Source: Marasmius tenuissimus (Eukaryota > Basidiomycota > Agaricomycetes > Agaricales > Marasmiaceae). Taken from it: a stretch of DNA of 64,000 nucleotides. The stretch lies in NCBI GenBank assembly GCA_029532415.1, contig JAQOTA010000050.1, forward strand, positions 5,332,001-5,396,000. The letters run 5' to 3'. Positions 1,822 to 43,885 of the stretch are shown here, piece after piece; positions within the stretch are counted from its first letter, which is position 1, and every line of letters begins with the position of its first letter. The notes beneath the pieces were generated by a model. The model saw nothing but the letters and a program-made list of their open reading frames with translations. It ran no database searches and was not told the DNA's origin. Both the position numbers and the translations under genes were made by a program.

Positions 1822-1841
1822 CCCAGTGAAAACCGCACCTG
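1822..1841 (+). repeat. left terminal inverted repeat of outer element 1
   Basis: CCCAGTGAAAACCGCACCTG, a perfect inverted match to 17170-17189. The 7 bases before it (CTTGAAG) are repeated directly after the right end. The first 13 bases are shared with the element at 47465-56213. Confidence 0.9.
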
Positions 1842-2341
1842 TGCTGGTCTGGGAATATCTACCGTCTTCGGAGCAAATCTGCATGCGCAGAAAATGCCAG
1901 ATATTTGCAGAGTTTGCTCATCTGTCCAGATTATTTCTGCACCTGTCTGGCCCAATTTCCGCTGATCCCGCCAGTATCTGTACCTATCCGCGCGTATCTG
2001 CACTTATCCGACATTTTCTGTTGCTCCAATGGGTTCTCGTTAGCTGGTCCGTTCAGATCTTCATAATCGGATCCATTGTTATGATTCATGATACTTGTAG
2101 ATATGTACACAGAGAAGAGAAGAAGGACTACTACAGATGAATTACCTCGAAGACATGAAGTGATGGCAAGACTTGCCGAAACGAGTTGCAAAGCTCTTGT
2201 CCAGCCCAAGGACCCTTCCGTCTGGATCTACTCGTGTCATCTTTCCGTGCCTTGTACCTCTTGCCATCCGTCCAACCCAATACTACTCAGCCAACCCTGT
2301 CAACGCTGCTGGAGACTGCCAGATGAAGAACACAGAATAGT

Positions 2342-2650
2342 CACCAGAAAAAGATGCGGCTGTTCATGTATGAACATGAACCGCCTGAGCGGCCTTGTGG
2401 GGCCATGTACCATTTGAGGCTCACGGGGTTGATAACCGTTCGTGAGCAATGGGATTTTGTATGGCCGCCCATGATCGCCGTGAGCCTCAGCAGGTACATG
2501 TGCCGTGTGAGGTTCACAGCGTGCATGAGCGTTCATGAGACCTTTGTGAGACTCAGAGTGTTCATGGTCAACCGTGAACCCTTCGTGAACCTCACCATGA
2601 GATTCAGGCCGTTTTCATGACAGTTCATGTACGAGCTGAGTATATAGAAG
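2342..2650. repeat. left subterminal repeat region of the nested element
   Basis: Dense array of short words in both orientations: GTGAGCCTCA/TGAGGCTCAC, GTGAGGTTCA, GTTCATGA, CATGAACCG, GTGAACC. The same words occur at 16320-16550 in inverse order. No gene is seen here. Confidence 0.7.
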
Positions 2651-2869
2651 GTGATAAGTAGTGTGAATATCATAGAACATATAAGAACTGATGAGGAACG
2701 CCGTGAATATGAGCGCCCATGCGCTACGTGGATCTCACAAACGTCACATTCACACATGAAGACATCGTGAGGGAAGGAAAAAAAAATACATCCATTCAGC
2801 AAGCAAGCGATACAGTCAGTCCACTAATAGTACAGATGGCAGCAAAAAAAAAACACATTAAAGCAGATG

Positions 2870-5073
2870 TCAATTACCCGTAGCCTCAGGCTCAGAAGCC
2901 TCTTCGGCGACCCCCACACCACTATCATCATTACCTTCCGCGACCTGCACATCCTTGTCGGACTTCTTGCGGCGTTTGCGCGAGTCGTTGTCGTTGTCGT
3001 TGTCGTCCTCAGAGTCGAGTGCGTGCTTCTTGGAGTTCGGAAGATATGAAGGCGGAATGTCCATTTCGTCAAGGTCTGGCGACTGCTCCCGGTTTGATAG
3101 GAGGAGGTGGGTCTCTTGCAGCGCGGCCTTGTTGCGTTTGGGCCCAGAACGAGTTGATAGTCGAGCGCGGCCCAGCTCATTGCCGAAAAGCTGTCTGAAG
3201 CGAAGAGTTAGAAAAAGCCAAAGACGATCAGCTGTAAACTCACTTGTTCCACTCCACGATCAGCGCCTGTAGCCAACGCGTGTGCTTCTTCCTTTCACTT
3301 TCCAGACAATCATCCACAAGCTCTTCTCTAATTCTCTCAAGGTCCGCCTTGGTGTACTCTTGCCCTTCCTCGAGCAACTCCTCCATATCCTCCAACGATC
3401 CTACCGATTCGCGAATGGACCTCCGATATGGCACCTCGTCGATGTAGGCTCCCGTAATGCGGCTCAGAACGAAGTAGTATAATTCGGGGTAGCTGAAGGC
3501 CCCATCGACGTCTTTCCAGGATGTCGCTGTGGAGAGGCAATACCGAACCTGGCGAATATCACATGAGTAAACGAAACGTGAGTGAATGTTCAACAACGTA
3601 CCAGGATACAGATGTAGGCAATCATCTGCGCGGAGACTAGATGGATATCGAGCCTGGCATCGTTGCTTCTAGCCGACGACTTCTTATCCAGAAACATGGC
3701 CGACGAGGGTCCTGTGTAGACATGCCGCCCGACCTGGAACAGAGTAAGTGCGACGTGTATGGTAGACGAAAGGAAGACGTACACGGAAGAGAAGATAGCC
3801 TCTGAAGAGGCCGTCCATCCGATCCACGGCGTTATATCTATCATAGAGGAACCAAGGGAGGCCGGTGGCGAGCAGCTCGTCCTTCTTGGCTACAACCTGG
3901 TCTACCGCCCTGAAGGACATGTGAGGTGACTATTACTATAACATCAAAAAGAAACCGACTTACCACTGCCAGCGAGGATCGCTGCGCCCCAGGGTGATAA
4001 CCTTGTGCAGCTTGCGAGGTGCAAAGAGTGCGCAAATGTCGGGGTGGCGTACTCCACGACGGCCCCAGTCTGCATCAGCGCTAGAAAGCTCTGGACTCAG
4101 GGGTTCATTCGGGGTTTTCGGGAGGTAGACAACAATGAATTTGCGCAGGTTGCTGATGTCGGACGACCTGGCGCCAGATGAAATCTTCACGAGCTGTCGA
4201 GAGTTGAGTAGGCGTGGAATGGAGAGGGAGGAATATACTTGTTTGGCGAGAACTTCATAGTGTTCTAGATCGTGGGTTTCGTGAAGGACGTCGAGGACAA
4301 GTCGAAGCTTGGGAGAACGCTTGATCCATTTTCGAAACAGATCTGCCTGACGATTCTGTTCTCCTTTGTGCCTGAAGACGAGTGAGTAGATGAATCGAGA
4401 GATAGAGGCGCATATACACGTACATATCGGAGATGTGATCCTTCGTTAGTTTCCCTTCGCTGATCAAACCGACCATCAACACCTCGCGTAGTTGGGTGAA
4501 AGAGTCAACGCAGCGCATGAAAAACTTTGCCGCGAGCTTGAGGGGTTCTGCAGCACGGTTGGCTTCTCCAGTCGTGAACTCTTGACCTGGAGCATGAGTG
4601 GCGTCCGCTGGGCTACAAAGAATGTAAGTCAATGGAAGAAAAGACAACGAGAATATAGCTTACCTTTCGAAGGCAAACCGTCGGTTTTGGTATAGGTTCA
4701 GTGACTGGAGAGTCTTCGCTTCAACGGAGCTCCCTTGGAGTCCTTGCAACACCATCCTAACTCGACGGAAACGGGTTCCCTGTAGTTCCACATCATCTTC
4801 GTCTTCTTCATCGCCGGGTGGATCTTGAGATTCGGTTTGAGGAGGTGGATCTTGGTCAGTAGGCTGAGATGGATCTTGTTCAGTAGGCTGAGGTGGGTCT
4901 TTTCGTGCGGGCTGAGGGGCTTGAGGAGTTTGAGGCCGAGCACGTTGAGGAACTTGAGCTACAGGTCGAGCGACCGAACTAGCAGGAGTTGTAAGCTGAG
5001 CTTGTTGAGTTCGAGGTTGAGCGGCGCGAGTATAAGTAGCCTTTGACCGAGCATTCGTAGTAGTAGAAGACAT
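2870..5073 (-). CDS. DUF6698-family protein, 616 aa, 8 exons
   Basis: Exons (minus strand) are 4664-5073, 4424-4612, 4239-4371, 3964-4193, 3783-3909, 3602-3733, 3244-3548 and 2870-3194. All introns are 45-54 nt GT-AG, and the total is 617 codons. The start is the ATG at 5073. Residues 1-110 are low complexity (Pro/Gln/Asp-rich, acidic near 95). The middle holds the DUF6698-type core: the WGxRGVRHPDI stretch, then FLYDRYNAVDRMDGLFRG, GPSSAMF and SAQMIAYICILVRYCLS. The C terminus is acidic with a basic SRKRRKK cluster that could be a nuclear signal. Function is unknown; DUF6698 is known to me as an expanded family of basidiomycetes. It is intact, and is the first of four genes inside the nested element, transcribed in the same direction as the next. 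The assignment comes from remembered family motifs. Confidence 0.8.
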
Positions 5074-5318
5074 CGAGGACAGGAGAGTTGGTTGTGGTAG
5101 GAAGAGAAGATACGATGTGGGAGGGAAGGAATTGGGGACGCGAATTTATGGGGCGCGTATTGTTTGGTCAAGTTTGGACGCGTCTGTCAATCACGACAGT
5201 CGTGTGCCATCTATATGCTATACATTCGCGGAAAACTAAGCTAGAAAGATACATATATCGTGCTACTGATACAAGAAATGAACAATCTTAAGTAAAATGG
5301 CCGTCGAAGGGAAAGAGT

Positions 5319-8300
5319 TCAAGGTAATGGGCGAACCGGGATCATACGCTTGTTGAGGGCATGCCACTCGTCTCGCTCTGACTTCAGAACCTTGTTGAAC
5401 TTTGCTCGATTCCTGTCAGTTTCGAAAACCCTCGCCAGCATCGTCTTGGGATCCAGCTCCAGCCGTTCTGGAGTAACACGTTCTTCAGCAGTCGGGCTAT
5501 CCCTCTCGATGACCGCAACAACGATCCGAAGATTCTCATCCAACCTTGAGCCCAAGTAAAAGTTGGAGATCCGTCGCACGAGCTTGCCAATGTGCTCAGA
5601 TTGTCCACCGACGACCACCATCAAGTTCCGCTCGGTGCTGGCGTTGATCAGATTGCGAGCATGCTGGATGCTAGTAGGGTCATGAATGGCTTCCTTCTTG
5701 CCATCTGAGTTCTTCATGGCGCGCGCCCCACGGTGCCCCTTAACGATACTGAGGTAAACGTCTTCGTTCTCGAAGTTCGCTTGCACCTTGAGGCCCACGA
5801 GATTAGCATGGAGTATCCAGTGTTGGGGGACCGACGCTGCCGATGCGGCTTCCTCTTCCTCTGCCTCGCGAAAGGCCTCTAGGCAAAACGCCTCCAGTCT
5901 ATCAGCTGCAATCTGTTCAGAGTGGTCAAGGGGTTCAACTGGCGAAATAGTTGGGATTGAGGGAAGGGGAGCACAAGTCGAGGTAGTCGATGGGTCTGGA
6001 ACAGGTAGTCCAACGGAGAAGGGAGAAGATGAGTTAGGGTCCCAATGACTTCCCGGTGTCGTACCGAAGAGCATGTCCTCCATCTCGTGTCCTGACCACT
6101 GGGGAGTAGCGATTGTACTGATCGGGTAAGGAGAAATCGAATTGGGATCCCAGTGAGGTCCCAGTGTCGTATCGGAGTGCATGGTTTCTATCTCTTCTCT
6201 TGTCCACTGGGGAGTACCAGAACCCTCCGAACGATCCAACTCCTCCACTAGAACCGGGAGCTCCTCGAGGTCGGGTCGAAAGTCGTAAAAAGAGCCGGAT
6301 CTGACAGGGTACGCTTGGTTCAGCAACCTGCCGCTCTTCGTATCGCGGACGCGTAAGTAGTCGACGGTTGCCAGTCCTGTGTTCACGGCCATGTGTGTCT
6401 CGAGTTCGATCCTGAGCTGGATCCCTTTGCGATTCGACAAGGTCTTTCCTAAAACGTGCCGGTCTTTCTGCAAGTTATTCGTCTCGAAGGTGACGTTTAC
6501 CCCTCGTACCAATCCTAACTGTCCTTTGAGCTGACCCTTAGTAATGCGTACTCGAGTGCCCAACCACGGTTCACGGCCAGTCAACAATGAGCGAGAGATG
6601 CCGTAGATAACGTTCTGCCTCTCGCTCAAAGGTTGAGCATCTCGCAGTCGTTGCGCCCTACTGGTGATAAAGTTAGAATAATATCTATGAAAAAAGCCAA
6701 TGTAGAAGACTCACAGAGTTGTCAATATGTGGTCGTGGTCAGCGAAGACCAACTTCTTGAGTGCATCAACCCACAGGCCAACCATCAATCTTCTTCCAAA
6801 TCTCCCCTCCACCCTCTCCACCATCTCAACACGGCCGATGCACCCGCTTTGAGGCCCTCTGGTCACCCGTACCTCAATCCCTACCCAGGGAACCGGGACA
6901 AGCTCCCTCCTCGTACCAAACACGTCGAGACGAGTGTCTCTCTCCACAGGAGAAGGTATTCGCTTTGCTGCGTTGACATGGCAGGTTGCGAAGATGTGAT
7001 ATTCGGGTATGATCACGGTAAGGATGTCCTCGTATCTGGCGAGAACGCGACCATGTTTACCGCAATCTTTCCCTGTCATTATGATGACCCAGTCATCTTT
7101 CTTGTGAGGTTTGAGAAGATGTCGGACTTGAGCAGCATGTTCGCCCTTGCTGACTACCTCCTGAAGCCTTCGTTGTTCACGCCGAGTTTCTTCTTCCTTC
7201 CTCTCTCGCAGAAACTTCCCCTCAGGTGTCTCGTTCGCATAGTCAACGGGACCAACGATAGACTTCAAGACCTGCTCCGCGTCTACCTTGGTGCTCACGA
7301 TGGCCATCTGGGGGTTACTCAACCTAGCTTGGACCTGCAAGTGCTTGAAGGTAACGATCATTCCGCGGCGAGGGGTCTGATTCGATGCAGATGGTGGAGA
7401 AGGATCGGTCCAAACGACATCTTCGCCGTCGTCAAAGGACCACCCGGAGGGATGGGGGAAAGGAGAGGATTGAAGGATGAAGTGGTTCGACTCCCTGAAA
7501 GCTTTCTCGAGCTTGAGTGGAATCGAAGTCGCGAGTAGAAGGTCCTTTCGATGATAGTTGGTAATGAGTAGTCCCTCGGGGACAAACATCAAGTTGTTGT
7601 ATCGGTAGAGCTTGAGTTCCCCAACTTTGACCTTTTCAACATTATCGTACTCTTTGGCGTTGAATAGACGGGGAGGATTGCGGTGAACGGAGGATCCGTC
7701 AGTTTCGCTGGCAAAAGGTCGAATAATGTCCGGATCCTCCTGTTGTAGCTCAGACTTTTCGCGTTTGCTGAGAGGATGCCGTGGCACGAGGAGAACCTGA
7801 AATTCGTCGCGTTTACAGCGAAGATCCTCCAGTTCGAGGAAATCCACGCCTCTTTGTTCGTGGCGCAACTCGTGAATGAATTCCCTCTGTTCAGCCCTCA
7901 TCTGCTCGATATCCTTTTCATGCTCGAGCCTCCGCTTCTTCGCCGGGTTGTACTTCAGTTTATTCTGAAGGATCTCCTCCCGTTCCCTGTCTTCTTCGTC
8001 GTCTTCGAAGTCTCGTGGCAGCGAGATCGCTATACCCACGTCGCCACGGTATGTCCCAGAGCAAACGGTCACCCATTCGAGAGGCCCAACGTACTCTCTC
8101 AATCGGGTACTGACGGCACGAGAATATCGTTTCTTCTCTTCGCGAATGTAGCCGCGATCCAAAGTGGAGGTATTGGCGTTTTCGGCATTCCTGTTGAGTG
8201 TATGAATACGCTCCCAAGGGTCCATTCGATCAACGAGAGGGATCTGAGAGATGGGCCTCGAGAGCCGGGGAGACATGGAAGGAAACGTTGGTACAGTTGG

Positions 8301-8665
8301 TGGTTCTGAGGAAGATGGAAGGAATAACGGAGTGTGTCGAGGTGGGGATGGTCTTTCATTGGGCTTAGGATCGCGGACATAACGAGTAGTGAGGTCGTCG
8401 CAGAGAGCATCTACAAATGCCTGTTGATCTGCGCGTGCTTCGGGGGACACTTGTGTACGGGAAGAAGTGGGATCTGTGCAGAAAACAACATTGAAACCCA
8501 GTGCAATAACAAAAGTAAGGTGAACTTACCGTTGTCGTCGTCGTCGCTGAACTCGAAGTGCTCCTCGTCTTCCAATTCTCCTTCATCCTCGTCATTTCCA
8601 TCCTCTACGGCAGCAACGTCCAGAAACGAGTCAACGCCTGTTCTTTTGCGCTTTCCAGCAGCCAT
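5319..8665 (-). CDS. Spt5-like KOW-domain protein, 1078 aa, 3 exons
   Basis: Exons are 8530-8665, 6715-8473 and 5319-6660, with introns of 56 and 54 nt, giving 1079 codons. The start ATG at 8665 gives a basic AAGKRKRTG head, then a strongly acidic stretch (about residues 18-45), as in Spt5 N termini. KOW-like segments are visible at WVTVCSGTYRGDVG, WVIIMTGKDCGKHGRV, VEVRVTRG-type GIEVRVTRGPQSGCIGRV and, in the last exon, GTRVRITKGQLKGQLGLV. The C-terminal third has proline-rich and acidic parts. Spt5 is the conserved transcription elongation factor of RNA polymerase II. This protein is too divergent and too embedded in mobile DNA to be the housekeeping copy, so I read it as a lineage-specific Spt5-like paralog carried as cargo. 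It is divergent from the transposase gene across the inverted repeat at 8988-9292, whose left arm may be its untranslated first exon. Confidence 0.7.
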
Positions 8666-8987
8666 CAAGCTTCGAGTTTTCGCGGGGTGAGAGTTGTAAG
8701 TCCTGAAAACAACAGAGTCAGCGTGTCTTTTCCACAGATGCATGGAATATAGCTCGTACCAATTGAGAACGTGAAGAACGATGCACCTAGTTCATGGTGC
8801 GGCAGCAACTGAGCCTGTAAAATAGACCGTCAGCATCTTTGGCTGGGTTTTTTCGTTTTCGTCTATGGTAAAAGAATTTTTATGGGGCTTTTCGCCGCCA
8901 TTGCATTCACTCATTTACTTAGAGAACGATTGGATTGTAATTGTTATATTCTACTCTAATTATTCTACGATTGTGAGGCACACTTAC

Positions 8988-9292
8988 CTCGCAACGAGGA
9001 CCACCTGAGCTTGACGGTGGTGGTTCTGGTTCAAGAGTCGCATAGGTGGCTGTGCAGTTTGAACGCCCACGATATTCCCAGCGTGATGTGGAAATCAGCT
9101 AGCGCCCGGAAAATATCAAGCGCCGTAGAGATAACAGATAACAGGACAGATAAGACGGTCTAATCTCTACGGCGCTTGATATTTTCCGGGCGCTAGCTGA
9201 TTTCCACATCACGCTGGGAATATCGTGGGCGTTCGAACTGCACAGCCACCTATGCGACTCTTGAACCAGAACCACCACCGTCAAGCTCAGGT
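8988..9292. repeat. 130 bp near-perfect inverted repeat between divergent genes
   Basis: Arms 9003-9132 and 9163-9292 are reverse complements with a single mismatch; the spacer is 30 bases (9133-9162). On the right arm the sequence ends CTCAG|GTAAGAATCC, a splice donor facing the transposase gene. On the left arm the minus strand runs on through about 15 unique bases to GCGAG|GTAAGTGTGC (donor at 8987), facing the Spt5-like gene. Each arm also contains the same in-frame ATG (right arm 9252). The simplest reading is a head-to-head duplicated first exon and promoter region shared by two divergent genes. The alternative is a foldback element. Confidence 0.85.
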
Positions 9293-9429
9293 AAGAATCC
9301 CTACAACATTCCCTACGTAGTACAAACCGTATTATACCTACAATAACAAGCGAGTTATGTATAAGTAAGCCTTGAGAACCAAAGAAGAGTCAAAAAGACT
9401 CGCGAAAAACGGATGAAAAAAAAAAACCA

Positions 9430-9483
9430 GCACGATTCATGCTGCTAGGACGACTCATGTTCCTAGGACGACTCATGCTGCCT
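9430..9483 (+). repeat. three 18 bp tandem repeats
   Basis: Units start at 9430, 9448 and 9466 with consensus GGACGACTCATGCTGCTA; the first unit is more diverged. They lie in the leader of the transposase gene, between the inverted repeat and the first certain coding exon. Confidence 0.75.
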
Positions 9484-9635
9484 CGAATAACGATGCTGAT
9501 TCGCCCTCCTTGTTTTCTAGGTTGTTGACCGACCTGGTGTTGGCCGCTGTCTATTTATTGACCCCGATGCCGGTGAGTTCATTCTTCTGACGCCATGCAT
9601 TCCGTGCATCCAGCTGACTATTGCGTTTTTCTCAG

Positions 9636-12600
9636 TTATGTTTATATTGCTCTCGTGAATTTGATTCTCGCCGTAGCCTCAGCAATCACCACCGCTATTG
9701 TCGTGTAAAACATCTTGGTGAAGCGAGCCAGATAGATGGAACGATTGGTGTAGCTCCTCAGGAAGCTGAGGAGGACCCAGGGAGGCAGGATGAAGAAGAG
9801 ATTTTGTTGGATGAAGACCACGGCGAACCAGGGCAGTCCGAACAAACCCAGAATATCCCGGAGCCTGTCGTTGAAGAAACGCCGGTGAACTCGCAGACCA
9901 GGGAAAGGTCGCAACGGACGCGCAAAATACCGGTTCGTTACATAGAGATGGACCTCTCCTCTCGATGCGGTTTTCTCTCGCAAGCAATGCCAGAACCAGA
10001 ACCAGAACCCGCCCCCATCCCTGAACCAGAGCCAGATCCTCAGCCATCCCCCGAACCAGATCCTCAGCCAACGCCAGAGCCAGATCCACTCTTCGTCTCG
10101 TCAAAGGATGAGTTCGGACTTTTCACTGTCTATCGATTTGGACTTCCATCCCGGAACCCAGACGATGATATCGCCATGGACGATCTGGTTGATTCGGGAG
10201 GATTCGCAGTCAATCCTATACGAGGCCGTCGACCAGGTGCAGTATTTGGTACTCGAAAAGTCGATACCCCATCATCTGCATCGATTGCTATGTCTACCGA
10301 GAACATCGCAACGGCCGACCGCCCAGAAACCACAGATACCCCCGCATCTGACGAAAACGAAGGGAAATCCGCTTACCTCCCATTCTCGAACCCCACCTCA
10401 TTCCGTCTTATGGACTGGTACTACAACACGGCAGCAAATGGTCTTTCCTTGTTCAACTTCAACGAGCTCGTTGCCATCTTCCGCCATCCAGACTACGACC
10501 CTTCTCACATCGCAAAGTTTGATTGTGTCAAAGAAGGGAAGAAAATGGATGCCTACGTTGGCGGAGAAATCCCCGAGGGCAAGGGCAAGGGCAAAGGCAA
10601 ACTCGTAGCAGTAGAAGCAGTGTCCGGTGAAGAGATTCCGGCCGCTGAAAAGTCTCTAGCAACAGGACTTCCCTTCACCTCGTATTCGGGATGGAATGAA
10701 GGCTTCGTTGATATACCCCTTCCACGCGCTGGCCATAAGTGCACAGAGCACGAAACCTACAAGTTCAGAGTGGACGATATATGGTACCGGAGTGCCCTTT
10801 CCGCCATTCAGGACGACTTTCAGGACACGTCGTTCTATTCATTCCACCTCAAACCATTCAAGCAGTTCTGGCAGCCAGAACCTGACGGCCCGATTCAAAG
10901 GGTATACTCGGAGGTCTACACATCCGACAGGATGTTGGAGATGGAACAGGATGTGCTACGGAGGGTACCTGCTGACTGCAATCACGAAGTGGTCGTAGTT
11001 GCCATCATGCAGTACTCCGATAGTACCAACCTCACGCATTTCGGGGATCGGTCTATCTGGCCTGGATACATCTCGTTCGGGAATATGTCAAAGTATCGGC
11101 GGTCCAATCCGTCCATGTTTGCGATGAACCACATCGTGTATGTTCCGAAGGTGGGTTTCCCGCCTCGTCTTTCATCACTTACGTTCTAACGACTCTTCCA
11201 GATACCAGATTCTTTCAAACAGACATACAAGGACCTACTGGAACGCGCTGTCACCGACGAGGTACTCCGCTTCGTTAAGCGTGAGATGATACAGCTCGTT
11301 TGGGCGCTGATACTATCCGATCCCAACTTTGTGGATGCGTACCTCAACGGCAAGTTGGAACGATGTGCTGATGGCGTCCTTCGCCTATTGTTTCCAAGGC
11401 TTTTCGCGCACTCCGCTGACTACGTAGAAAAGTAAGCCAATCCCCTCGCACTGCAAGGCAACACTCTTAACCAGATTATTTCCAGGGTCTTGTTAGCAAG
11501 CATCAAGTTTCTATCAGCGTTTCCGTGTCCCCAATGCATGATCAAGAAGTCACAGATACACATGCTTGGAACTAAATTGGATCGTAAACGTAGAGACAAG
11601 CAGCGAGAGGACTCGGACGAGCGCAGGTCCCGTGTGGAGGAAGCTCGTGAATGCATCTTCGAATATGGGATGGCTTTGACGAGCGAGTTCGTCACGGAAC
11701 TGATGAGGGGAACATCAGAGCAAGTGGACAGGGTAAGTCTTCCTCTCCGTGGATTCCAATACCCACGAACTTACTGGTCGTTATAGAATACGTTTTCCGG
11801 GCTGCTCCACCAAGTAGGAGACAATTTCTACGATGTCATCGTCGCCGACACGATGCACGAACTCGCGGGTTTGATGGAGAATATATTCAAACAATGCAAT
11901 CGTCTTGTCTTTGCTGGAGATTCGGGAAATCTAGATGTTCTAAACGAAAGGTAAGCCTTGGACAGTTTGACACTGATCCTGGCTTACACCCTTCAAAGGT
12001 TCCGCAGAGTTCCTACGTTTGACAACGGCACCATTCGCCGATTCGTGAACAACGTCACCCTGATGAAGAAGTTTGCATTCAGGGACTTTGAGGACGTGAT
12101 ACAGGTAAGATAACTTGCGAGTTCCTTTTGTTTGGATACTGAACAATTTGACCAGTGTGCTATTCCCTGCTTTGAGGGCTTGTTGCCCGAGCCGCACAAC
12201 AAGGACCTCCTCGATCTACTCTGGGACTTCAATGTCCTCATGGCATACGCGTCGCTTGGTCTACACACAGACTCTACCGTGGCGACGCTTGACAGTACCA
12301 TTACGGAGTTGGGGAAATCGTTACGACGTTTCGTGAATACTACCTGCGCAGCTTATGAGACGAGGGAGATCCCCAAGGAGGCGGAGAAACGACGGAATGC
12401 GGAGGCCAGACGTGAGGAGAAAAGGCTGAAAGAGGGAAAACAGACGAAGAAGAGGGGCACCAAGCGGGATCACAACGACGAAGACGGACGTTTATTGAAG
12501 ACATTCAGCATCAACACGATCAAGACTCACTTGACACTACCCCTACTTCATCAAGAAGTTTGGTAGCTTGGATAGCTACACGACACGTTTGGTTGGTTGG

Positions 12601-14019
12601 TTTTTCTGTCCCAAATTCCGTTACTAATGTCTTGACAGGGAGAACGTGAACATATTTGCACCAAGAAGTTGTACAGTAGAACGAACAAGAAGAATCATGA
12701 GCCTCAAATGGCCATGTACCACAGACGATCACGAATGCTTCATTCCGTTCGTGTCAAGGCGAGGTTCGCAGATCATCACAAGAGAAAGGATGGCGTGTAT
12801 ACCCTGCCAGATCGGGAGAGGCTGCCCCCCGGAAATCCCAAGGAAAAATACCAGATATCTACCAGCGAACGATACCCGCTGTGTCTGGATGATTTTCTGT
12901 ATGAGAACGCCGGTGATCCTGCGGTGGCAGTACATAGTTATTGTGCTATTGACCAACATCATTATTGATTCTCTTCCAGAACTTTGAAGAAGACTTGCGC
13001 GCCCATCTCCTCTACCGACTTTGCAATCTCTCTGGCGACGAGAAGCTGAGCAAGGAGGAGTTGAGAAGTCTCGTTTTCGTCAAGAATCGCATCTACACTC
13101 ACCGGACCTATCATATACACTACAACACGTACAACTTGCGTCGCAAGGCTCAAACGATCAACCCTCGTACCCATCCAGACATTAAGATGCTGGCAGATGA
13201 GGTCACTGCTCAGGAGCAAGGGCACCCTTATCACTATGCTAGGGTCATCGGAATATTTCACGCGAACGTACGGGTATTCGACCCCAATCTGCCGTATGAA
13301 GACATGAAGGTTTGGAACATGAATTTCCTTTGGGTTCGATGGTACGAGTTGGACACGACGCACCGACACGGATGGAAAGCTAAACGACTCCCCAAACTAC
13401 GATTTCTACCGGCAAACGATCCCCAAGCGTTCGGATTCGTCGATCCTGCCACGGTACTTCGAGGGGCTTTCCTTGAACCCGCGTTCGAAGATGGTTTCAC
13501 TCATATCTCGACAACGATCGGCGGTATCCTTGGTGAGGATTCCGTCTGCAGAGTGTACCACGGCTTTCACAATGGGAAGCCCGCCGTTGAGCTCGGAGAC
13601 TGGCGTGCCTACTACGCCAACTTGTGAGTCCATTGTTCTTCTACGAGAATTCCCATGCTAACTGTTTGAATAGCTTTGGCGACCGTGATCTATTCATGAG
13701 GAATCGCGGTGGAGGTGTTGGACATTCAACACGTGCTTTCACTCAAGAGTTGGAACGTGAGGCGACCATGAACAATACGCCTCTCCCCAATTACGACCCA
13801 GCGACAGGAGAGATACTGGAAGATGTCCCTGAAGATCTCGAGGTTGGAGAGGATCCTGAGGAGCAGAACGAACATCGCGCGTTCTCGGACAAGGACGAAA
13901 TCAGCTCCTTGGATGGAAGCTCGTCAGATGAGCCCGGACTGGATATCTACGACTCAAACGACAGCAGCGATGAAGATGAATGGGTCGACGTGGATGAGGC
14001 TGGGGATGGCTTGGATTAG
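9636..14019 (+). pseudogene. Plavaka-like transposase, frameshifted
   Basis: Exons are 9636-11150, 11202-11431, 11486-11732, 11787-11950, 11999-12104, 12156-12591, 12639-12929, 12980-13623 and 13674-14019. The first certain exon opens with a zinc-binding LCLYCSREF...H...C motif; the true start is upstream and unresolved, possibly the ATG at 9252 with a 340 nt intron. A Pro/Glu/Asp repeat follows (residues about 120-155). The transposase core shows the family landmarks: NLTHFGDRSIWPGYISFGN, CADGVLRLLFPRLF, PCPQC, ADTMHELAG, the LGxREH-type GEREH after DSYTTRL, and the C-terminal HYNTYNLRR, INPRTHPDI, FLWVRWYELD and MRNRGGGVGH. A 2-base loss at about 12531-12534 breaks the frame between THL and the YPYFIKKFG continuation. 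Everything else is open, so inactivation looks recent. The family name is from remembered Plavaka proteins. Confidence 0.8.
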
Positions 14020-14144
14020 CGCTTCGATGCCATCCTCCACCTCGAGATCGTCGTGCGGGTACATACTCTACCAGTCGGGGCAACACCCCTCACCCGCAGG
14101 TGTTGCCCATGCCCAAGAAATGATACTACAAAAGACTACTTCTA

Positions 14145-15871
14145 CTACTTCTTCTCAACACGAATCACTTTCGAAACCAGACAATCAATTGCTTGTACCA
14201 AAGGTACAATTTTAACATCTACTGTCATGTTATCGGGAACTAATACTAACTCAAATACTTCGTTGTGCCTCCTCGTGCAGTCATCACAACGGCCTCTTGG
14301 CCTCGAAACACATTCTTGATGGAGTTTGAGGTGTACCAGTCGTTCTAGGTAAGTCAGCGGTGCAACTTATCGGCGAGACAGTATAACTTACCGGTAAGAT
14401 GGCAGTGTTGCACCTTTACTTCGTCAAACCACTCCTGGTTTTGCGAATGACACTGCCGGCGCCACTCCGTTTCCCGCCTTTTGACATCGCCGGTCCTCCC
14501 AACCTTGAAAAGGCCGGTGTCAGGATCTTTCACGTCCGTGTGGATCCGGTAACAATAGATTGAACCCTCCACCTCAAACTTCAGCAACGAAATGCCCCTG
14601 AGGGTGATGCCTAGGACCCGTTCGACAATTCTGACCATGGATGGGTCCACCCACTCCCAAGGGCGAGCATCAGATTGCCTCGGCGATGGCTGGACTTTAT
14701 CCATGGCGACGACAGAGGAACGGCGGCACACGTCGTCTAGAGGTTCATAAGTGAACAACGGTCGTTGACGAGAGGTCGATGTTGACGATCGTGTATAGTA
14801 CACCGGCGCATACTGAGGGTCAGGGCCGGAGTTGAAGGAAATGGAGCCGATCGTCGAGGGCGAAAGCTGGAGTCGTTGATCGTAGGCGTACGGATCAACG
14901 ATTGCGTTGATGGTGGAGGGATAGGCGTAATAGCCATTCAAGAAATGTGAGGAGTTGGTTGACGAGGGATGGGGAGGATACGCGTAGGCGGTCGAGGTTG
15001 ACGGATACGAGGGAAATTGCGTTCCAGATTCATAGTCTGTGGGCAAGGAATAGGCTGGATCAGCATAGGCGTTCGACGCCGAGGGATGCATGTTCAAGAT
15101 TGGGGGGTGGAGTTTCAACGTTGAGGGATGTGGGTTCATGATCGGGGTACAGTCGTTGGACGTAGAGGAATAGCCGGTCAACGTCGACGGATGAAAGTTC
15201 AAGAAGGTTGGGGGGGAATAGTTGAAGACCGGGCCTGTATGATTATACAAGGTCAGCGTGTTTTCGTTGAGCATCGTTGGACCAACGTTGAACGTCGGAG
15301 GACAATCGTCTAACCGGGGACCAAAATTACCCGACGCCGGGCCAAAACCATCCATCGTCGGCCCAAAACCGTTTATATTGGACTGATAGATGTCTTCGGC
15401 GGTCGGATCCAAAGTCGGGGGGAAGTCGTCCAACGCCGGCCCAAAGTCATCCGACATCGAGTCAAAACCGTCTAACGCCGGGCCAAAACCATCCAACGTC
15501 GGCCCAAGAACGTTCAGGTCGGACTGATGGACATGTTTGTCAGTCGGATTCAAGGTCAGGGGGAAGTCGTTCAACGCCAGCCCATAGTCGACCAACATCG
15601 AGTCAAAACCGTCCGGCGTCGGTCCAAAACTGTCCAATGTCAGCCCAAGAACGTTCAGGTCGGACTGGTAGACGTGTTCGTCAGTCGGATTCAAGGTCAA
15701 GGGGAAGTCGTTCAACGCAGGCCCAAAGTCGTCCAACATCGAGTCAAAGTCGACCAACATCGAGTCAAAATCGTCCGGCGTCGGTCCAAAACCGTCCAAC
15801 GTCGGCCCAAGAACGTTCAGGTTGGACTGGTAGACGTGCTTGGTAGTCTGAGGGAGCCAAAATTCGTTCAT
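14145..15871 (-). CDS. repeat protein with C-terminal GIY-YIG/T5orf172-type domain, 559 aa
   Basis: Two exons, 14392-15871 and 14145-14344, are separated by a 47 nt intron. The start is the ATG at 15871. Residues 1-170 are heptad-like tandem units such as GPTLDGF, DSMLVDF and GPALNDF, with a longer HVYQSDLNVLG unit recurring four times. Residues 170-400 are Pro/Ser/Tyr-rich and probably disordered. The C-terminal 140 residues fit the T5orf172/MUG113 type of GIY-YIG-related DNA-binding or nuclease domain. They include LFKVGRTGDVKRRETEWRRQC, then after the intron ERLVHLKL and a CDDC...H pair with a glutamate in HNEVF. The exon 2 match confirms the intron. The gene converges on the transposase gene (126 bp apart). 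Role unknown; a DNA-acting partner of the element is a guess. Confidence 0.75.
15340..15845 (-). repeat. in-frame tandem repeats encoding heptads
   Basis: About 21 nt units (CCAACGTCGGCCCAAAACCG-like on the plus strand) repeat within exon 1 of the preceding gene. They are grouped by a longer unit recurring near 15825, 15661, 15523 and 15381 (spacing about 140-160 bp). The unit copies are not identical, so the array is not brand new. Confidence 0.8.
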
Positions 15872-16054
15872 ATTCGACGGAAAGTGAGAAGAAAGTCGTC
15901 CTAGGAGGCAAAAATGTCCAGCAGAGGTGCAAAAAAGCCCAGTAAGTGCTCAAAACCTGTCAAAAATCGATTTGGAACGCACCTTGACCCTTTTCCTACA
16001 GTCTATATCCTTGGTTTGGGTCCTGGGATGGTGCAGAGGGCAGAGGAAGGCAGT

Positions 16055-16092
16055 TGGGGGGATGTGGGGGGAAGTGGGGGGGAAGTGGGGGG
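16055..16092 (+). other. G-rich tract, potential G-quadruplex
   Basis: Four runs of six or seven G are separated by 3-4 bases, about 185 bp upstream of the start at 15871. This is an ideal quadruplex pattern. The rest of 15872-16319 shows no gene. Confidence 0.7.
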
Positions 16093-16319
16093 TTTGATGG
16101 TGGTGGTTGATGGTCAAGAGGGAATGAGGCTGCGCCCAATGGCCGCGTGCGCCTCATGGCATCGCCGTTACGTTGTCATCGACCACCATGACGACGGCGA
16201 TGGTTTGTATGTCGTTTGGGGTAGGTACAGTACTTACACTTGTACCCCACATTATTTTTTGTCAAAAAAAATCTGTATTCATGTCTAAATATGGTAATTG
16301 TGATATTCAGGCCTAATTA

Positions 16320-16550
16320 TAAGTTTAAATGAGCCCTCTGTGAGCCTCAGACGGTACATAAGGGCCCATAAACTTGTTTGAACTTCATGAACAGACTCAG
16401 GACTGATCATAAACGATCATGAACCGCTCCTGAGCCTCAAGAAGTTCATGAGCGCTTATGAGGCGCGTGAGTCTCAGGGCCGTTCACGTACTCACATAAG
16501 CGCCCTGAGCAAATATGTGAGTACATGAACGGCCCGCACTTTTTCTGGTG
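16320..16550. repeat. right subterminal repeat region of the nested element
   Basis: Contains TGAGCCTCA, GTTCATGA, CATGAAC and GTGAGTC words in both orientations, mirroring 2342-2650, and ends with the inverted terminal motif at 16521-16550. Confidence 0.7.
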
Positions 16551-17169
16551 GTTAGCAACTAGTAGTGCATGTAAGAGGATGAACGTACCTGAACACACGA
16601 TGATTTATTAAAACCCAGATGACTGACAGATTTACATGACCGAGGAAATACAGAATGAGGAAGCGATGCCAATGAGCATAAAATGATCTGACCCTCACCG
16701 GATTACCATAACTTTCCGCATTAGATATGGCCCTCAGTTGATGATCGGAAGAATTACATGGACACAAGACGTTTGAACAGAGGGCAAAGATAATGGGGGG
16801 AGGGAAGGAAGGAGCGTTGTGGTCGATGTCAAACGCCTTCAAGTATAAGTGACAGGCGAATGATTCGAGGACCCACGCACGGACCAGTTTAGGGCAGGGC
16901 AGAGGGCACGCGTCTGAGCTGCGTTCCGAGTCGATACCAGTTGGATGTGTTCTACAATGACTTCTCCGAGCTACTTCAAAAGTTATCACGACTGGCTACG
17001 AGCAGAAGCAGAAGATTCAATGACGTGAAGGAGTTTCAAAGGAAACACGCATTCTGAATCCCCCAAAATCCCAACCATCTCCACGACTCCACCTCCCGAG
17101 GGCCTGCATCCAGATCAACGCGGAAATCACCAGACACCCCTGGATATCCCCAGATTGCCCCAGATTGTG
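16551..17169. other. right interior of outer element 1, no gene recognised
   Basis: One 145-codon frame on the minus strand (16552-16989) has no recognisable motif or intron logic and I do not support it. Near the right end ATCTGG words recur. Confidence 0.5.
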
Positions 17170-17189
17170 CAGGTGCGGTTTTCACTGGG
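17170..17189 (-). repeat. right terminal inverted repeat of outer element 1
   Basis: Exact inverted copy of 1822-1841, followed by the target duplication CTTGAAG at 17190-17196. Confidence 0.9.
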
Positions 17190-17560
17190 CTTGAAGCTTG
17201 AAGACGCGAAGTTTTGTCGTTGAGGGGGTCGGGAGTAGATGGATAGACAAAAAAGTCGATTGGCTGCTGGCGTCGTCGTTGGGATGTGGAAGGGGTTTTA
17301 TCAGGATAGCCATACAACCACGCCCGGGGATAGACAAGCTCTGGTCGATGTTAGCCAGTAAAAAAGGGAACACAAATGATAACATACAGTAAACACTCAG
17401 ATCATTCTCCAACGATATTCCCAATCACATATTCCACGAGATTGAAAGATGTTTGATGAGTGGGAAAGCCAGGCCAAATTCGCGCTCATGTTCAACTCCA
17501 CCGAAAACCTAGTCTCTCGTAGACAGACGCTTCATACCGACGAACACTTTTTGAGGGTGG
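17190..17560 (-). pseudogene. FFPNAQ-family copy 1, middle part beyond the transposon
   Basis: The frame GYPDKTPSTSQRRRQQPIDF continues the intact family's GYLDQSPPKTQQRRQQPIYL. A 46 nt intron (17347-17392) keeps the CTAAC branch and CAG acceptor seen in copy 2. Upstream exon 7 is recognisable to about 17560 but contains an extra CCCAATCACAT-like insertion. Exons 1-6 are absent, so the copy is 5' truncated as well as split. It joins 1-1821 when the element at 1822-17189 is removed. Confidence 0.8.
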
Positions 17561-22561: not shown

Positions 22562-22606
22562 ACCTCCATCATAAGGTAAAGTCGACGGGGGGCATCCAGT
22601 GATATG
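22562..22606 (-). pseudogene. FFPNAQ-family copy 3, C-terminal remnant
   Basis: About 45 bases (AAGGTAAAGTCGACGGGGGG and neighbours) align with copy 5 at about 58468-58500 and continue at 31133 once the retrotransposon is removed. The rest of the 3' end is lost or diverged to the left. The last five bases, ATATG, are the target duplication. Confidence 0.75.
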
Positions 22607-22928
22607 TGTTGAATCTGTGGACTATAATTAGATCCCGGTATATCCGAAGTCCCAGTTCATACTTCCCGCCATTGTATTATGCGGGACAATGCATTCGCTA
22701 TTGTTCTATTCTTCATTTGTTCATTATGCTCATATGTACAATTTCTATTGTCATCCCTATATGGTAACTTTATTGTATCTACATGTATATAAGCTTGTAG
22801 TTCTCTACTTGAATCTACAGTGTGCTTGAGCTTCTACGTCTCGCCTCTATCTCTCTAAACTCTTCTCTGGTAAGTAGTAGTGTAGCCATGTTGTAGTCCT
22901 CTGCGCTAGGCGTCATGCCGGCTCATCA
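22607..22928 (+). repeat. LTR 1
   Basis: 322 bp, TGTTGAATC...CTCATCA, with terminal TG..CA. A TATATAA box lies at 22786-22792. A consensus splice donor GTAAGT lies at 22870 near the 3' part. Confidence 0.92.
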
Positions 22929-23195
22929 GGTTATGGGCCCCGGTTAGCCCAACTACAATGACGAGCGCCTTGATGGCTGCTGTCAACGACGAGCGCCCCT
23001 AGGCTGCTGTCATCAGCTAGCTAGGCTAGACCTGCATGTTGCCATCGACCTCTTAATTGAGTGCTCGATCTATGGCATTGATGTACGTCCTTCGACGACA
23101 TTGGATCTAAAGGATCCAATGCTCCTCGTTGAGCATAGTGCCTTGATGGCTGCTCCCTGTGTTGATTAGACGCATGCTGATGCTGTCTTTTCTAG
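22870..23195 (+). other. candidate leader intron of the first element
   Basis: GTAAGT donor inside the LTR and TTTTCTAG acceptor 32 bases before the gag ATG; 326 nt. The same pair occurs at 25013-25338. Splicing would remove the end of the LTR, the primer-binding region and the leader. Inferred from splice consensus only. Confidence 0.4.
22934..22943 (+). promoter_or_regulatory. candidate primer-binding site
   Basis: TGGGCCCCGG begins five bases after the LTR end; an identical site is at 25077-25086. The tRNA could not be identified. Confidence 0.4.
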
Positions 23196-23227
23196 ATCCA
23201 ACACCAAACTCTCAACCTCTTACTACC

Positions 23228-24749
23228 ATGTTCGACGTTAAGAAATACATCTCTGGTTGCTTCGATGGCACCAACTTCAAACAGACCTACGCCAGCGAGA
23301 TGGAAGCTGTGTGTAAGACCCAGGGTCTTGATGGTCATCTCACTGGTGATGAACTACATCCCTCCATGCCTCTTGGCACTGTCACTAGCCCCACAGGGGT
23401 TACTCCCGTTGTTCGTGACACTGTCCCTCCTGAAGAGCATGCCCCATGGCAAAAGGAGAGTCTTGCATGGGATAAGGAAGATCTCCAGCTCATGGGGATT
23501 ATCCAGATCACGACCACCAAGGAAGTCTTCGATCCGATCAAGGACATGAACGCCCAGAAGGCTTGGGAACAGCTGAATCTCACCTACGGCGAGCCCACTT
23601 TGTCTGCCATCTATGGCGACTTTGTTAAACTCGTCTCTTTCAGACTTACCACCTCTTATCCCCAAGCCGGCATCGCCAAGTTCAAGTCCTACATCAAACG
23701 ACTCTCCGAGGTAGGAGTGGTTCTCCCCAAGTTGATCAAGTCCCTCTTGCTCATTGCCGCTATTCCTCCTGAATGGGATGCCGCCTCATCCAAATCCCTT
23801 CATGACTATGTCAGGGATCCCGAGGATGAAGAATGCATCACCGTTTCGAAAGTCCATGATGCTATCATGGTCAAGTACGAACGCCAGAACCCTCAGCTTG
23901 CCAACCGCCTCTCTGCGGTGAAGCGTGCTGGTAATCGTGAACCATCGTTCGGTCAGCAGCAACGCCCGCAGCAGCAACGTCAGCAGCGTGGGTATCAGCA
24001 GCAGACCAACACCCGTCCACCACAGCAGCAGCAGCAACGCCAATCTTTGAACCAGAACAAGGGTAAGAAGAAGAAGCAGCAGCAGCGTGGTACCCGCGGT
24101 GGTATCAACCAGCACCAGGGTCCCGGCAATGCCGGCGGTAACAGCGGTAACAATCGGTCTCATGGTCACTCCCATCTTGCATCCTACGCATCCGTCGTTG
24201 CTTCCCCTCCTCCTGTTCGTCCTTACTCCTTGATCACTGACTGCAGGGAATGTATTGCGTTGAACGCAGTCAACAACTCCCTGCGCGCCAAGATTGCCAG
24301 TGCCCCTCCTAGCTGTGCTAGAGGATCTCCGCCCCCAGCGCACTTCACTGGTCACTGGGACAAGTCTTGTGACAGCACTGTCGCTCCCGCTGTCAAGAAG
24401 AATCCTGCTTCAGTCCTTCACCGGCTTCAAGCCATCTGAGTCAGTATTTGATGATGTACGTGAAGCATGTTCACTTGCTGACAGACTTGGTGTCTCTAAG
24501 ACGGCGCGGCATCTCAAACCGTTCGAACAGATCGTCACGTCCGCCGCCAATCGTTCGCTCCAGGATCGTATCTCGAAGCCTGGTTCCTCGTCGAAGCGAG
24601 TTCTGGAGGACGATTCGGAAGATGAAGGAACCGGACGTCCTTCTCCTACTCCTTCTAAACGCTCTCGCAGCGTTGATCCTGATGAAGATGTAGAGATGGA
24701 CTGGGGATCTGACGATGGTATGGACGATATGGCTTCTCTATTCAGTAAC
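23228..24749 (+). pseudogene. gag of the first copia element, frameshifted and truncated
   Basis: Starts at ATG 23228 (FDVKKYISG) and is homologous to the gag of the second element over its whole length: KEDLQLMGIIQ, YGEPTLSAIYGDFVKLVSFRLTT, PPEWDAASSKSLHD, then Gln/Arg-rich and GGxNQHQG basic stretches. Around 24411 five bases are missing relative to the second element, so the frame ends at 24439, while the continuation (QSFTGFKPSESVFDDVRE...) is readable in another frame up to 24749. There the middle LTR begins, at a point where the intact element has the word TGTTGA, which is also how the LTR starts. Protease, integrase and reverse transcriptase are absent. The gag protein is clearly diverged from the second element although the leaders are identical. 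Confidence 0.85.
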
Positions 24750-25071
24750 TGTTGAATCCGTGGACTATAATTAGATTCCGGTATATCCGAAGTCCCGGTT
24801 CATACTTCCCGCCATTGTATTATGCGGGACAATGCATTCGCTATTGTTCCATTCTTCATTGTTCTATATGCTCATATGTACAATTCCTATAGTCGTCCTT
24901 ATATGGTATTTACTATTGTCTCTACATGTATATAAGCTCGTAGTTCTCTACTTGAATTCACAGTGTGCTTGAGCTTCTACGTCTCGCCTCTATCTCTCTA
25001 AACTCTTCTCTGGTAAGTAGTAGTATAGCTATGTTGTAGTCCTCTGCGCTAGGCGTCATGCCGGCTCATCA
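24750..25071 (+). repeat. LTR 2 (middle, diverged)
   Basis: 322 bp, same ends as LTR 1 but about twenty differences, clustered in the 5' two thirds. No target duplication is associated with it. Confidence 0.92.
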
Positions 25072-25371
25072 GGTTATGGGCCCCGGTTAGCCCAACTACA
25101 ATGACGAGCGCCTTGATGGCTGCTGTCAACGACGAGCGCCCCTAGGCTGCTGTCATCAGCTAGCTAGGCTAGACCTGCATGTTGCCATCGACCTCTTAAT
25201 TGAGTGCTCGATCTATGGCATTGATGTACGTCCTTCGACGACATTGGATCTAAAGGATCCAATGCTCCTCGTTGAGCATAGTGCCTTGATGGCTGCTCCC
25301 TGTGTTGATTAGACGCATGCTGATGCTGTCTTTTCTAGATCCAACACCAAACAACCTAACCTCTTACTACC

Positions 25372-28300
25372 ATGTTCGACGTTAAGAAATTCTTCTCCGG
25401 TCGCTTCGACGGCACTGGATTCCGCCAGACCTATAACGGCGAAATGGAAGCTGTTACCAAGGCTCAAGGCCTCTATCGTCACCTCACTGGTGTGGCCAAG
25501 AAGCCTACGTACCCGCTGGGGGAACCTATTGTTCCGACCATTACGGTCACTACGCCCCCTGGTGGAACTGCTCAGCCTGCAGCTGGAACTGACAGTGACG
25601 ACGAACCTGATCGTCATCCTCCCACCGATGCCCAGATCACGGCGTATAATACCGCGCTGGAAGCATGGGAGGAGAAAGACCTCCAGCTGATGGGTATCAT
25701 TCAGTTGACCTCTACGAAGGAAGTCCTTGAACCTCTCAAGGACATGGACGCTGCCAAAGCCTGGTCCACCATTGTCACCACCTACGGCGAACCAACTCTG
25801 TCTGCCATTTATGGCGACTTCGTCAAATTGGTGTCCTTCCGGCTTACCACCAGCCATCCCCAGGCTGGCATCGCCAAGTTCAAACACTACATTGAACGTC
25901 TTGCCGAGGTCGGGGTTGAACTCCCCGAGTTGATCAAAGCCCTCCTTCTTATCGCAGCTATTCCTCCCGAATGGGACGCCGCTTCCTCCAAGTCCCTTCA
26001 TGACTTTGATAGGGATCCTGAGAGCTCCAGCGCCCTCACCGTCGCCGACGTTCATGAAGCTATCATGATCGAATACGAGCGCCAGAACCCTCAGCTTGCT
26101 AACCGCCTCTCTGCGGTCAAGCGTGCTGGTAATCGTGAGCCATCCTTTGGTCAGCAACAGCGCCCGCCGCAGCAACGTCAGCAGCGCGGACAGCAGCAGC
26201 GTGGCCAACAGCGTCAACCACAGCAGCAGCAGCAACGTCCTTCTTCGAACCAGAACAACGGTAAGAAGAAGAAGCAGCAGCAGCGTGGTACCCGCGGTGG
26301 CATCAATCAGCATCAGGGTCCCGGTAACAACGGTGGTAACAATCGGTCGCATGGTCACTCCCATCTGGCATCCTATGCATCCGTCATAGCTTCCCCCGCT
26401 CCCATCCGTCCTTATTCCTCGATCACCGACCGCAGGGAACGTATCGCATTGAACGTGGTCAACAACTCCTTGCGTGCCGAGATCGCCAGCGCCCCTCCTG
26501 TTCGCGCTATGGGATCACCGCCCCCAGCTCACTTCACCGGTCATTGGGACAAGTCCTGCGACAGCACTGTCCCTCAGCCAGCTGTCAAGAAGAACCCGGC
26601 TGCCATGCAGTCCTTCACTGGCTTCAAGCCATCTCAGTCAGTATTTGATGATGTCCGTGGAGCACGTTCTCTTGCTGACAGACTTGGTGCCCCTAAGACG
26701 GCGCGGTATCTCAAACCCTTCGAACAGATCGTCACGTCCGCCACCAATCGTTCGCTCCAGGACCGCATTGAACAACCACGTGCGTCCTCGTCCAAGCATC
26801 TTTTGGAGGATGATGAGGGATATGAGGGAGCCGGATCTCCTTCTTCTACTTCTTCTAAACGCTCTCGTAGCGCTGATCCTGATGAAGATGTAGAGATGGA
26901 CTGGGGATCTGACGACGGTATGGAAGATATGACCTCTCTATTCGGTAATGATGTTGACAACGATATTGCCGAAGCTGCAGGGGTTGAGGACGTCCCGGAT
27001 GACGTCTCTCTTGGATCGTTCCATGATGACAGGCAAGTTCCATATCTTGACCTGCTTTCCCAATCTGATGCAACCTTACAGCGATGCTCACAACTAGTTG
27101 GTATCAGTAGTTCGCGTCGTAGTCGTAGTGATCTGGCATCACTTGTATCATATTGCAATGCTATCTCCACCCACTTCGTGGGTTGTACTCAGTGCAAGGG
27201 AAAGAAAAGTGTGAACAATGCACAGGGTTGGCTCCTTGATTCTGGTGCCTCCTCTCATTTCACGAATGATTTGAATGATTTCGCTGAATATGAATCGCTT
27301 GATGGTCCTATCGTAAATACTGCAAATAAGGGCAACCCTATACAGATCAAGGGTAAAGGCACTGTCTTCATTAAGCATAATGTTGAAGGACATGACAGGA
27401 AACTTACTGAGCGTGTTTTGCGTCTCTATCCTGTCTATTACATACCTCAATTGGACATACGTCTACTATCAATGGGAGAGTTCCTTCGAGATGGTCTATC
27501 AATTCGTGGAAACGCGAAGAAGTTAGCCTTCTACTCATCACAGCAACGACAGTCGCTTGTTTCCTACCCTCATATGCCTGGTCAAACCATTTATTGGGTA
27601 CACTCACGGAAAGCATCTGCTGAGGTTTTAATGGCCAAGTCGGTCGTTTACAACGTCGACTACGATATTGAGCACAGACACTTTGGGCATCCGTCGGATA
27701 AAGCCCTGAATAAAGCTCGGAAACATACGCAAGGTTTCCCACTTGACCTTAAGATGCCTACTAAGAAGACACCTCTGTGTCGTGGTTGTGCTGAAGGCAA
27801 GATGCATGAGAAATCGTTCCCCAACTCTACAATGAGAGCTTCTAAACTGTTTGAACGCATACATTCGGATTTGAAGTCGTACCCGGCTGAATCATATCAC
27901 CGGTACAAGTACTACATCTCTTTTCTCGATGACTGCACGTCCTACGTTTGGACCTCCAAGCTCAAGACGAAAGACGAGGCAGTACCCGCTTTGAGGGACT
28001 TCCTTACTATGGTCAAGATGCAATTCAATGCTGTTGTCAAGACCTGGATGTCCGATGAAGGGGGAGAGTACAAAGGAGATAAGTTCGATGCAGTACTGAA
28101 AGAATATGGGATCCAAAGGGATCAAAGCATACCGTATACACCACAACAAAACGGTCGTGCTGAACGATTCAACAGGACTATTCATGAGAAGGCTGAAGCT
28201 CTTCGCTTTGAAGCTTGTATGCCTCAGTCCTGGTGGGAATTCTGCCATGTGCACACCGTCCACCTCTACAATCGCACTCCTGTGCAACGTTTGAGCTGGC

Positions 28301-30768: not shown

Positions 30769-30801
30769 TTTGCTCAGATGCGCTTTTCAGCTGCACTTAG
30801 C

Positions 30802-30810
30802 GAGGGGGTG
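30802..30810 (+). promoter_or_regulatory. polypurine tract
   Basis: GAGGGGGTG immediately before LTR 3, the usual site of plus-strand priming. Confidence 0.75.
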
Positions 30811-31132
30811 TGTTGAATCCGTGGACTATAATTAGATCCCGGTATATCCGAAGTCCCAGTTCATACTTCCTGCCATTGTATTATGCGGGACAATGCATTC
30901 GCTATTGTTCTATTCTTCATTTGTTCATTATGCTCATATGTACAATTTCTATTGTCATCCCTATATGGTAACTTTATTGTATCTACATGTATATAAGCTT
31001 GTAGTTCTCTACTTGAATCTACAGTGTGCTTGAGCTTCTACGTCTCGCCTCTATCTCTCTAAACTCTTCTCTGGTAAGTAGTAGTGTAGCCATGTTGTAG
31101 TCCTCTGCGCTAGGCGTCATGCCGGCTCATCA
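30811..31132 (+). repeat. LTR 3
   Basis: 322 bp, differing from LTR 1 at two C/T positions. Followed by ATATG, the target duplication. Confidence 0.92.
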
Positions 31133-40213: not shown

Positions 40214-40384
40214 AACACGAAAACAGGTGGGCGGTAGATACACTATACATAAATCTTCTAGATATGCGAATCAAACCATGAATACCATACAAGTGATTAA
40301 ACCATCCGTGAAATATGAGGCGACCGAAACGACAATCTCCCAAAGTCCTCAACCCGAAACAATTTTTGAACCTCACCCGGTCCA

Positions 40385-43694: not shown

Positions 43695-43844
43695 GGGTGC
43701 CGTAGGGTGAAGGAGGAAGGAAGGGAAAAGAGGGTGTAGGGTGTCAAAGAAACGCAAGTCAAACACGCTTATATTACAAGCAAACACACCGCTTACACGC
43801 CTTTGAGCTAAATCAGTACATAGCGCCAAAAACACGCGTCTTCC

Positions 43845-43885
43845 GTCCGCCTCTTGAGAGTTCTCCCAACTGAGCTACGTTTCCC
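43845..43885 (-). other. tRNA-like relic with an A box
   Basis: The minus strand reads GGGAAACG then TAGCTCAGTTGGGAGA, a perfect pol III A box and tRNA D-arm, but the D-stem partner is GAAC instead of GAGC. No anticodon arm, T arm or B box follows. Most likely a tRNA fragment or a trace of a tRNA-derived SINE; it lies about 150 bp upstream of the intact gene's start. Confidence 0.4.

Follow-up and report, generated by a model that had tools for sequence, protein, structure and literature searches.

A Plavaka transposon nested within a short CCCAGTG-ended element in a tandem gene copy of Marasmius tenuissimus

In those sections of a published survey (PMC12730594) that treat them, transposons of the CMCT clade create target duplications of 2–5 bp and mostly carry CA..TG ends, Plavaka elements duplicate 2 or 3 bp, and Kyakuja and hAT7 duplicate 7 bp. 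The Plavaka ends given in the corresponding parts of the literature are TGT..ACA (A) and CATCA..TGATG (B) (PMC12730594, Kojima 2025), and the sections of PMC9674265 and PMC8290104 available to us give no 7-bp case for EnSpm. Here we analyse a stretch of 64,000 nucleotides from Marasmius tenuissimus (the window; C7:5332001–5396000, on one of the 70 contigs of a 71-Mb assembly), which contains a 15.4-kb interval at 1822–17189 that an initial annotation read as one large, cargo-bearing transposon with terminal inverted repeats, inserted in a gene. We conclude that the interval is very probably a Plavaka transposon inside an element of about 1.16 kb, itself inside one copy of a tandemly repeated gene, and that the short element was most likely moved by the Transposase_21-type enzyme of its larger relatives. 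The gene-rich ‘15-kb transposon’ thus turned out to be a nested pair.

The outer boundaries are as the initial annotation described them. The sequence CCCAGTGAAAACCGCACCTG is exact at 1822–1841 (+) and 17170–17189 (−), giving perfect 20-bp inverted repeats, and CTTGAAG flanks both ends (1815–1821 and 17190–17196), the longest duplication being exactly 7 bp. A search of the window for this end, allowing up to three mismatches, returned 4 matches against 0.01 expected; the two extra matches terminate a second element (47465–56213). When 2342–16550 is deleted, an element of about 1,157 bp is left, and its complete counterpart on contig C3 measures 1,156 bp, which agrees with the earlier estimate that the interval has only about 1.2 kb of DNA of its own, the remainder being nested. 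The alignment to the C3 copy falls into two blocks, at offsets 1–520 (97.5% identity) and 14730–15368 (98.9%), which share 2 bp of that uninterrupted copy; window positions 2342–16550 are therefore an insertion with a GT duplication (2340–2341 and 16551–16552). The left part of the short element (1822–2341, +, 520 bp) is also 95% identical to a copy on C33, and the right part (16551–17189, +) spans 639 bp. The ends of this element of about 1.16 kb read CCCAGTGAAAACC..., and no recognised transposase was found in it.

The short element belongs to a family with CCCAGTGAAAAYC ends, which we call the CCCAGTG family. A degenerate form of the end, searched across the assembly with the reversed pattern as control, gave 70 matches against 11. 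Forty of the 70 ends form 20 inverted pairs that enclose 1.16–15.8 kb, all under 20 kb. We read the flanks of these pairs and of two further pairs with mismatched ends, on C25 and C1. Exact 7-bp duplications border 19 of the 22; in all 19, 7 bp is the longest duplication and the 7-mer fits NNTNANN (T at position 3, A at position 5). Every one of the 22 pairs ends in CCCAGTG or in a variant of it that differs at one base. The initial annotation had staked its case on further copies with the same ends, inverted and flanked by 7-bp duplications; such copies exist at other sites in the assembly and bear out the mobility of the outer element. The sub-terminal motif TCTG[CG] is enriched in all eight end stretches of four short copies (p ≤ 0.018, 500 shuffles each), which is weak support because the motif was picked after the sequence had been viewed.

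The large members of the family (8.7–15.8 kb) are its transposase-bearing forms and are distinct from the 1822–17189 interval. One of them is the second element in the window, about 30 kb from the first: it covers 47465–56213 (+, 8,749 bp), has the ends CCCAGTGAAAACCACGTCTG and lies between copies of CCTGAGA (47458–47464 and 56214–56220). It contains a decayed Transposase_21-type gene in two overlapping frames (49844–52313, +), with 2 stops, tblastn identities of 42% and 50% to an intact 833-amino-acid (aa) copy, and a PF02992 score of 20.9 bits, under the cut-off of 28.6. The intact copy is an open frame in the 13.1-kb element at C7:1589076 and scores 41.3 bits against the same Transposase_21 cut-off. 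Full-length members that combine a 7-bp duplication with a transposase gene number four, at separate sites: C7:1589076; C10:3586445 (14.5 kb), with an open frame 78% identical to the query and GTTAAAG on both sides; C28:1862087, in which the gene is broken by an insertion; and the decayed copy in the window (45–51% identity in the assembly search). The C7 and C28 copies are 98.6–99.9% identical over their aligned DNA yet occupy different sites with different 7-bp duplications; therefore the whole unit has moved together with the transposase gene. By eye, the open reading frame (ORF; 5602–6240 of the C28 stretch analysed) in the insertion that breaks the C28 gene matches one at window 63324–63821, and the insertion would thus be another mobile family.

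A search of the assembly with the transposase gave 32 rows, of which we followed 12 close loci, excluding fragments at C30:265–269 kb (49–62% identity) and distant rows (25–37%). A CCCAGTG-type end lies 640–2385 bp upstream at seven of the 12, and an eighth has an upstream end with 2 mismatches in 13. A second conserved gene gave 12 match rows; when the C30 fragments are counted, 11 of these lie on the strand of a nearby transposase match. The short element was most likely mobilised by the transposase of these 8.7–15.8-kb relatives, with which it shares its ends. The Transposase_21-type enzyme would cut with a stagger of 7 bp, preferring NNTNANN, and would act in trans on the short members, of about 1.16 and 1.37 kb.

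The transposase in the large copies might instead belong to an EnSpm-like element with short duplications that is itself nested there, the 7-bp family using some other enzyme. Nesting does occur in the window, and the clade is given duplications of 2–5 bp in the relevant sections of PMC12730594; we nevertheless consider this explanation unlikely, because the transposase match begins 640–752 bp from a CCCAGTG end at six loci and 2385 bp from one in the window copy, because the four full-length members, with transposases 45–100% identical to the query, share the same ends and 7-bp duplications, and because the second gene accompanies the transposase in 11 of 12 rows.

The inner unit, by comparison, is an independent Plavaka transposon, and the claim that the gene-rich DNA is cargo of the outer element did not survive: these 14.2 kb have ends and a 2-bp duplication of their own and recur twice on contig C27. 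The unit (2342–16550, +, 14,209 bp) has the ends CACCAGAAAAAG..CTTTTTCTGGTG. Pfam scans at E 0.01 covered 20 ORFs in all, ten of them in this unit, and identified the first part of a Plavaka transposase ORF at 9618–11189 (+; PF18759, E = 2.4e-15, 57 bits against a cut-off of 26.3). The left-end pattern with at most one mismatch has three matches in the assembly, all exact (the window and two on C27); since the reversed control gave five, this pattern alone is not decisive. Both C27 sites, however, adjoin the same succession of KOW, Plavaka and T5orf172 matches as in the window, and each right end is found at the distance expected for a 14.2-kb unit, with the 2-bp duplications TG and AG. All three copies examined thus have duplications of the length described for Plavaka (GT, TG and AG).

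Against this background, a single cargo-bearing transposon, mobile as a whole by way of its CCCAGTG ends, is a very unlikely reading of the 15.4-kb interval. Perfect ends and a 7-bp duplication do enclose all of it, and movement of the intact composite is conceivable in principle, but both halves align, with the 2-bp overlap at the junction, to one uninterrupted short copy, the inner unit has copies with its own ends on C27, where the degenerate search listed no CCCAGTG-type end, and the 20 end pairs, some of which were only partly read, showed no further composite.

The cargo of the Plavaka unit lies on the minus strand. Two ORFs at 3240–4445 carry DUF6698 pieces (PF20414, 25.2 bits against a cut-off of 23.7, and 22.4, below it); an ORF at 5319–6710 has a weak SPT5 KOW5 match (PF23290, E = 0.0025, 17.7 bits, below the cut-off of 27); a 604-aa ORF at 6711–8525 contains a KOW motif (PF00467, E = 3.6e-6, 27 bits, cut-off 22.3); and an ORF at 14354–15949 matches T5orf172, of the GIY-YIG type (PF10544, 26.9 bits, cut-off 20). 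A 290-bp hairpin (9003–9292; 130-nucleotide arms, 99% complementary, with a 30-nucleotide loop) sits in the gap that separates the KOW ORF from the divergently oriented transposase ORF; it may be an inverted duplication or may give rise to double-stranded RNA.

In the assembly the KOW ORF has 34 match rows, counted as 22 loci. The eight most similar all have a Plavaka ORF within 20 kb, and seven of these eight also have a T5orf172 match. At three of the eight (on C3, C5 and C28) the KOW ORF is 89–93% identical, compared with 52–73% for the transposase ORF, a difference in the sequences which suggests that either the KOW ORF is under stronger constraint or cargo has been exchanged. For the remaining 14 loci, comparison of the tables by eye shows no Plavaka match closer than 20 kb, and the KOW ORF may for this reason also ride on other elements. 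Three of the 14 (C19:7734, C60:2618 and C52:3080) are less than 8 kb from the start of their contig.

We located the target of the outer element by searching the assembly with its flanks (800 bp left, 804 bp right). The left flank gave at least 42 match rows and the right at least 40, the window itself appearing once in each, and there are no fewer than 17 paralogous loci, none of them outside 5.22–5.62 Mb of C7, where left and right matches adjoin to within 18 bp. The target is therefore one member of a tandem gene family, and the array supplies many natural empty sites against which an insertion can be checked. Two such sites lie in the window, one at 42042 (left flank to 40233–42042, right flank to 42042–42338) and one, from flank mapping, at 59815–59816. 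Nine paralogous sites were aligned, and CTTGAAG is absent from all nine. When the element and one CTTGAAG are taken out of the window site, 14 bp remain that none of the nine paralogs has, and the target was therefore not a plain empty site. The extra bases are CTTGAAG-like sequence (1808–1821 and 17190–17203) and may be the footprint of an earlier excision.

The claim of a split gene held in part: the flanks abut in the paralogs, but translating the joined flanks (400 + 393 bases) in all six frames does not yield the FFPNAQ exon said to become continuous when the interval is removed. Literal FFPNAQ occurs in the window just at 35214 and 61468, both on the minus strand, and the related start in a paralog, MSTFFPDAQ (ORF 43251–43874), is about 1.65 kb away from the insertion point. 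To the right of the insertion, homology of the interrupted copy to its paralogs stops at 17509. Copies of the tandem family, with its MSTFFPNAQ-like start, occupy 1–1821, 17197–17509, 31–35 kb, 40–44 kb and 58–62 kb of the window, and several are broken up by repeats. The alternative in which the flanks were never contiguous, and recombination or an assembly error produced the matching ends, could appeal to the 14 extra junction bases, but it is scarcely credible beside at least 17 paralogous loci with abutting flanks and an exact duplication of the family’s usual length.

The nested arrangement was very probably built in three steps. A gene of the tandem family would first have been copied along C7; the non-autonomous cut-and-paste element of about 1.16 kb would then have entered one copy, duplicating 7 bp; and the 14.2-kb Plavaka, with its KOW, DUF6698 and T5orf172 genes, finally entered the short element, duplicating GT. 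We infer both the stagger of the cut and which of the first two events came earlier.

Several observations weigh against this account or against the enzyme it invokes. The 14 extra bases at the target are one. Across the assembly, 30 of the 70 ends have no partner within 20 kb, and three of the 22 pairs (C1 and two on C30) have no matching 7-mers. The two copies of 1.37–1.39 kb that were compared match a 13-kb element over 26–40 bp at the ends alone. No element whose sub-ends are exactly the CGCACCTG of the short family proved to hold a transposase, and none of the large elements identified has these sub-ends. At four of the 12 close transposase loci no end was seen, either within 4 kb in the end search or in stretches of 151–181 bases placed by guess. 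An AlphaFold model of the 833-aa transposase had a mean pLDDT of 32.8 on a 5-row alignment and was not used. Sequence searches of solved structures with the transposase gave no match, one at E = 1.2 being taken as chance, and a profile comparison with the Plavaka ORF returned a probability of 0.5 on a very shallow alignment, from which nothing was gained.

Other repeats occur elsewhere in the window. Direct repeats of 324 bp, 99.4% identical, at 22605–22928 and 30809–31132 enclose long ORFs, and the repeat recurs at 24750–25071; the region 22605–31132 looks like long terminal repeat (LTR) retrotransposons. A 493-bp inverted pair at 32306–32798 and 34387–34879 is 100% identical.

Set beside described systems, the inner unit resembles PlavakaB, as that group appears in the parts of the literature cited above, in its Plavaka transposase, 2-bp duplications, CA..TG type ends and carried genes. 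It differs in its ends, CACCA..TGGTG, one base off CATCA..TGATG, and in its cargo: KOW, DUF6698 and T5orf172, with no TET/JBP match among its ten ORFs scanned.

The 7-bp duplications of the outer family recall Kyakuja, of the KDZ group, and hAT7, as the survey’s sections on them describe these (PMC12730594); Kyakuja itself has CA..TG ends and no inverted repeats there, whereas the outer family has 20-bp inverted repeats. A KDZ assignment was rejected, because the scan of 20 ORFs at E 0.01 gave no Pfam match to KDZ and inverted repeats of 20 bp are present. The ends of hAT elements often contain CAGTG. A hAT assignment was rejected as well, with no hAT Pfam match under the same scan and Transposase_21 as the enzyme matched. 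Nothing like a Starship was seen among the ORFs scanned, although no search aimed at Starships was made.

The outer family is most like EnSpm/CACTA (CMC/CMCT), with which it shares the Transposase_21 domain (above the cut-off in the C7:1589076 copy, below it in the window copy), large members with a second gene, many short relatives and, weakly, short repeated words near the ends. The CMCT clade is described as having a DDE core with C(2)C and H(3–4)H motifs; the spacing read by eye in the transposase is C(3)C. The termini are CCC..GGG in place of the CA..TG that the survey’s section on the clade gives (PMC12730594), CAC.. or CA..TG ends being absent from all 22 pairs, and the duplications are 7 bp in 19 of the 22, the other three being unmatched, in place of 3 bp (2–5 bp for the clade). 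As two clade features are lacking, we do not file the family under EnSpm, though it behaves as an EnSpm element would and has the same domain. Whether the CCCAGTG family is an undescribed Transposase_21 (EnSpm/CMC-related) lineage, with a 7-bp stagger at NNTNANN, CCC..GGG ends, large members carrying transposase and second gene, and at least two short sets, we regard as evenly balanced. Judged against a limited literature, a Transposase_21 enzyme with CCC..GGG ends and 7-bp duplications would be a new variant. If the enzyme assignment is true, stagger length and terminal bases would be less fixed in EnSpm-related transposases than the survey states, and searches that require CACTA ends and 3-bp duplications would miss a fungal element class.

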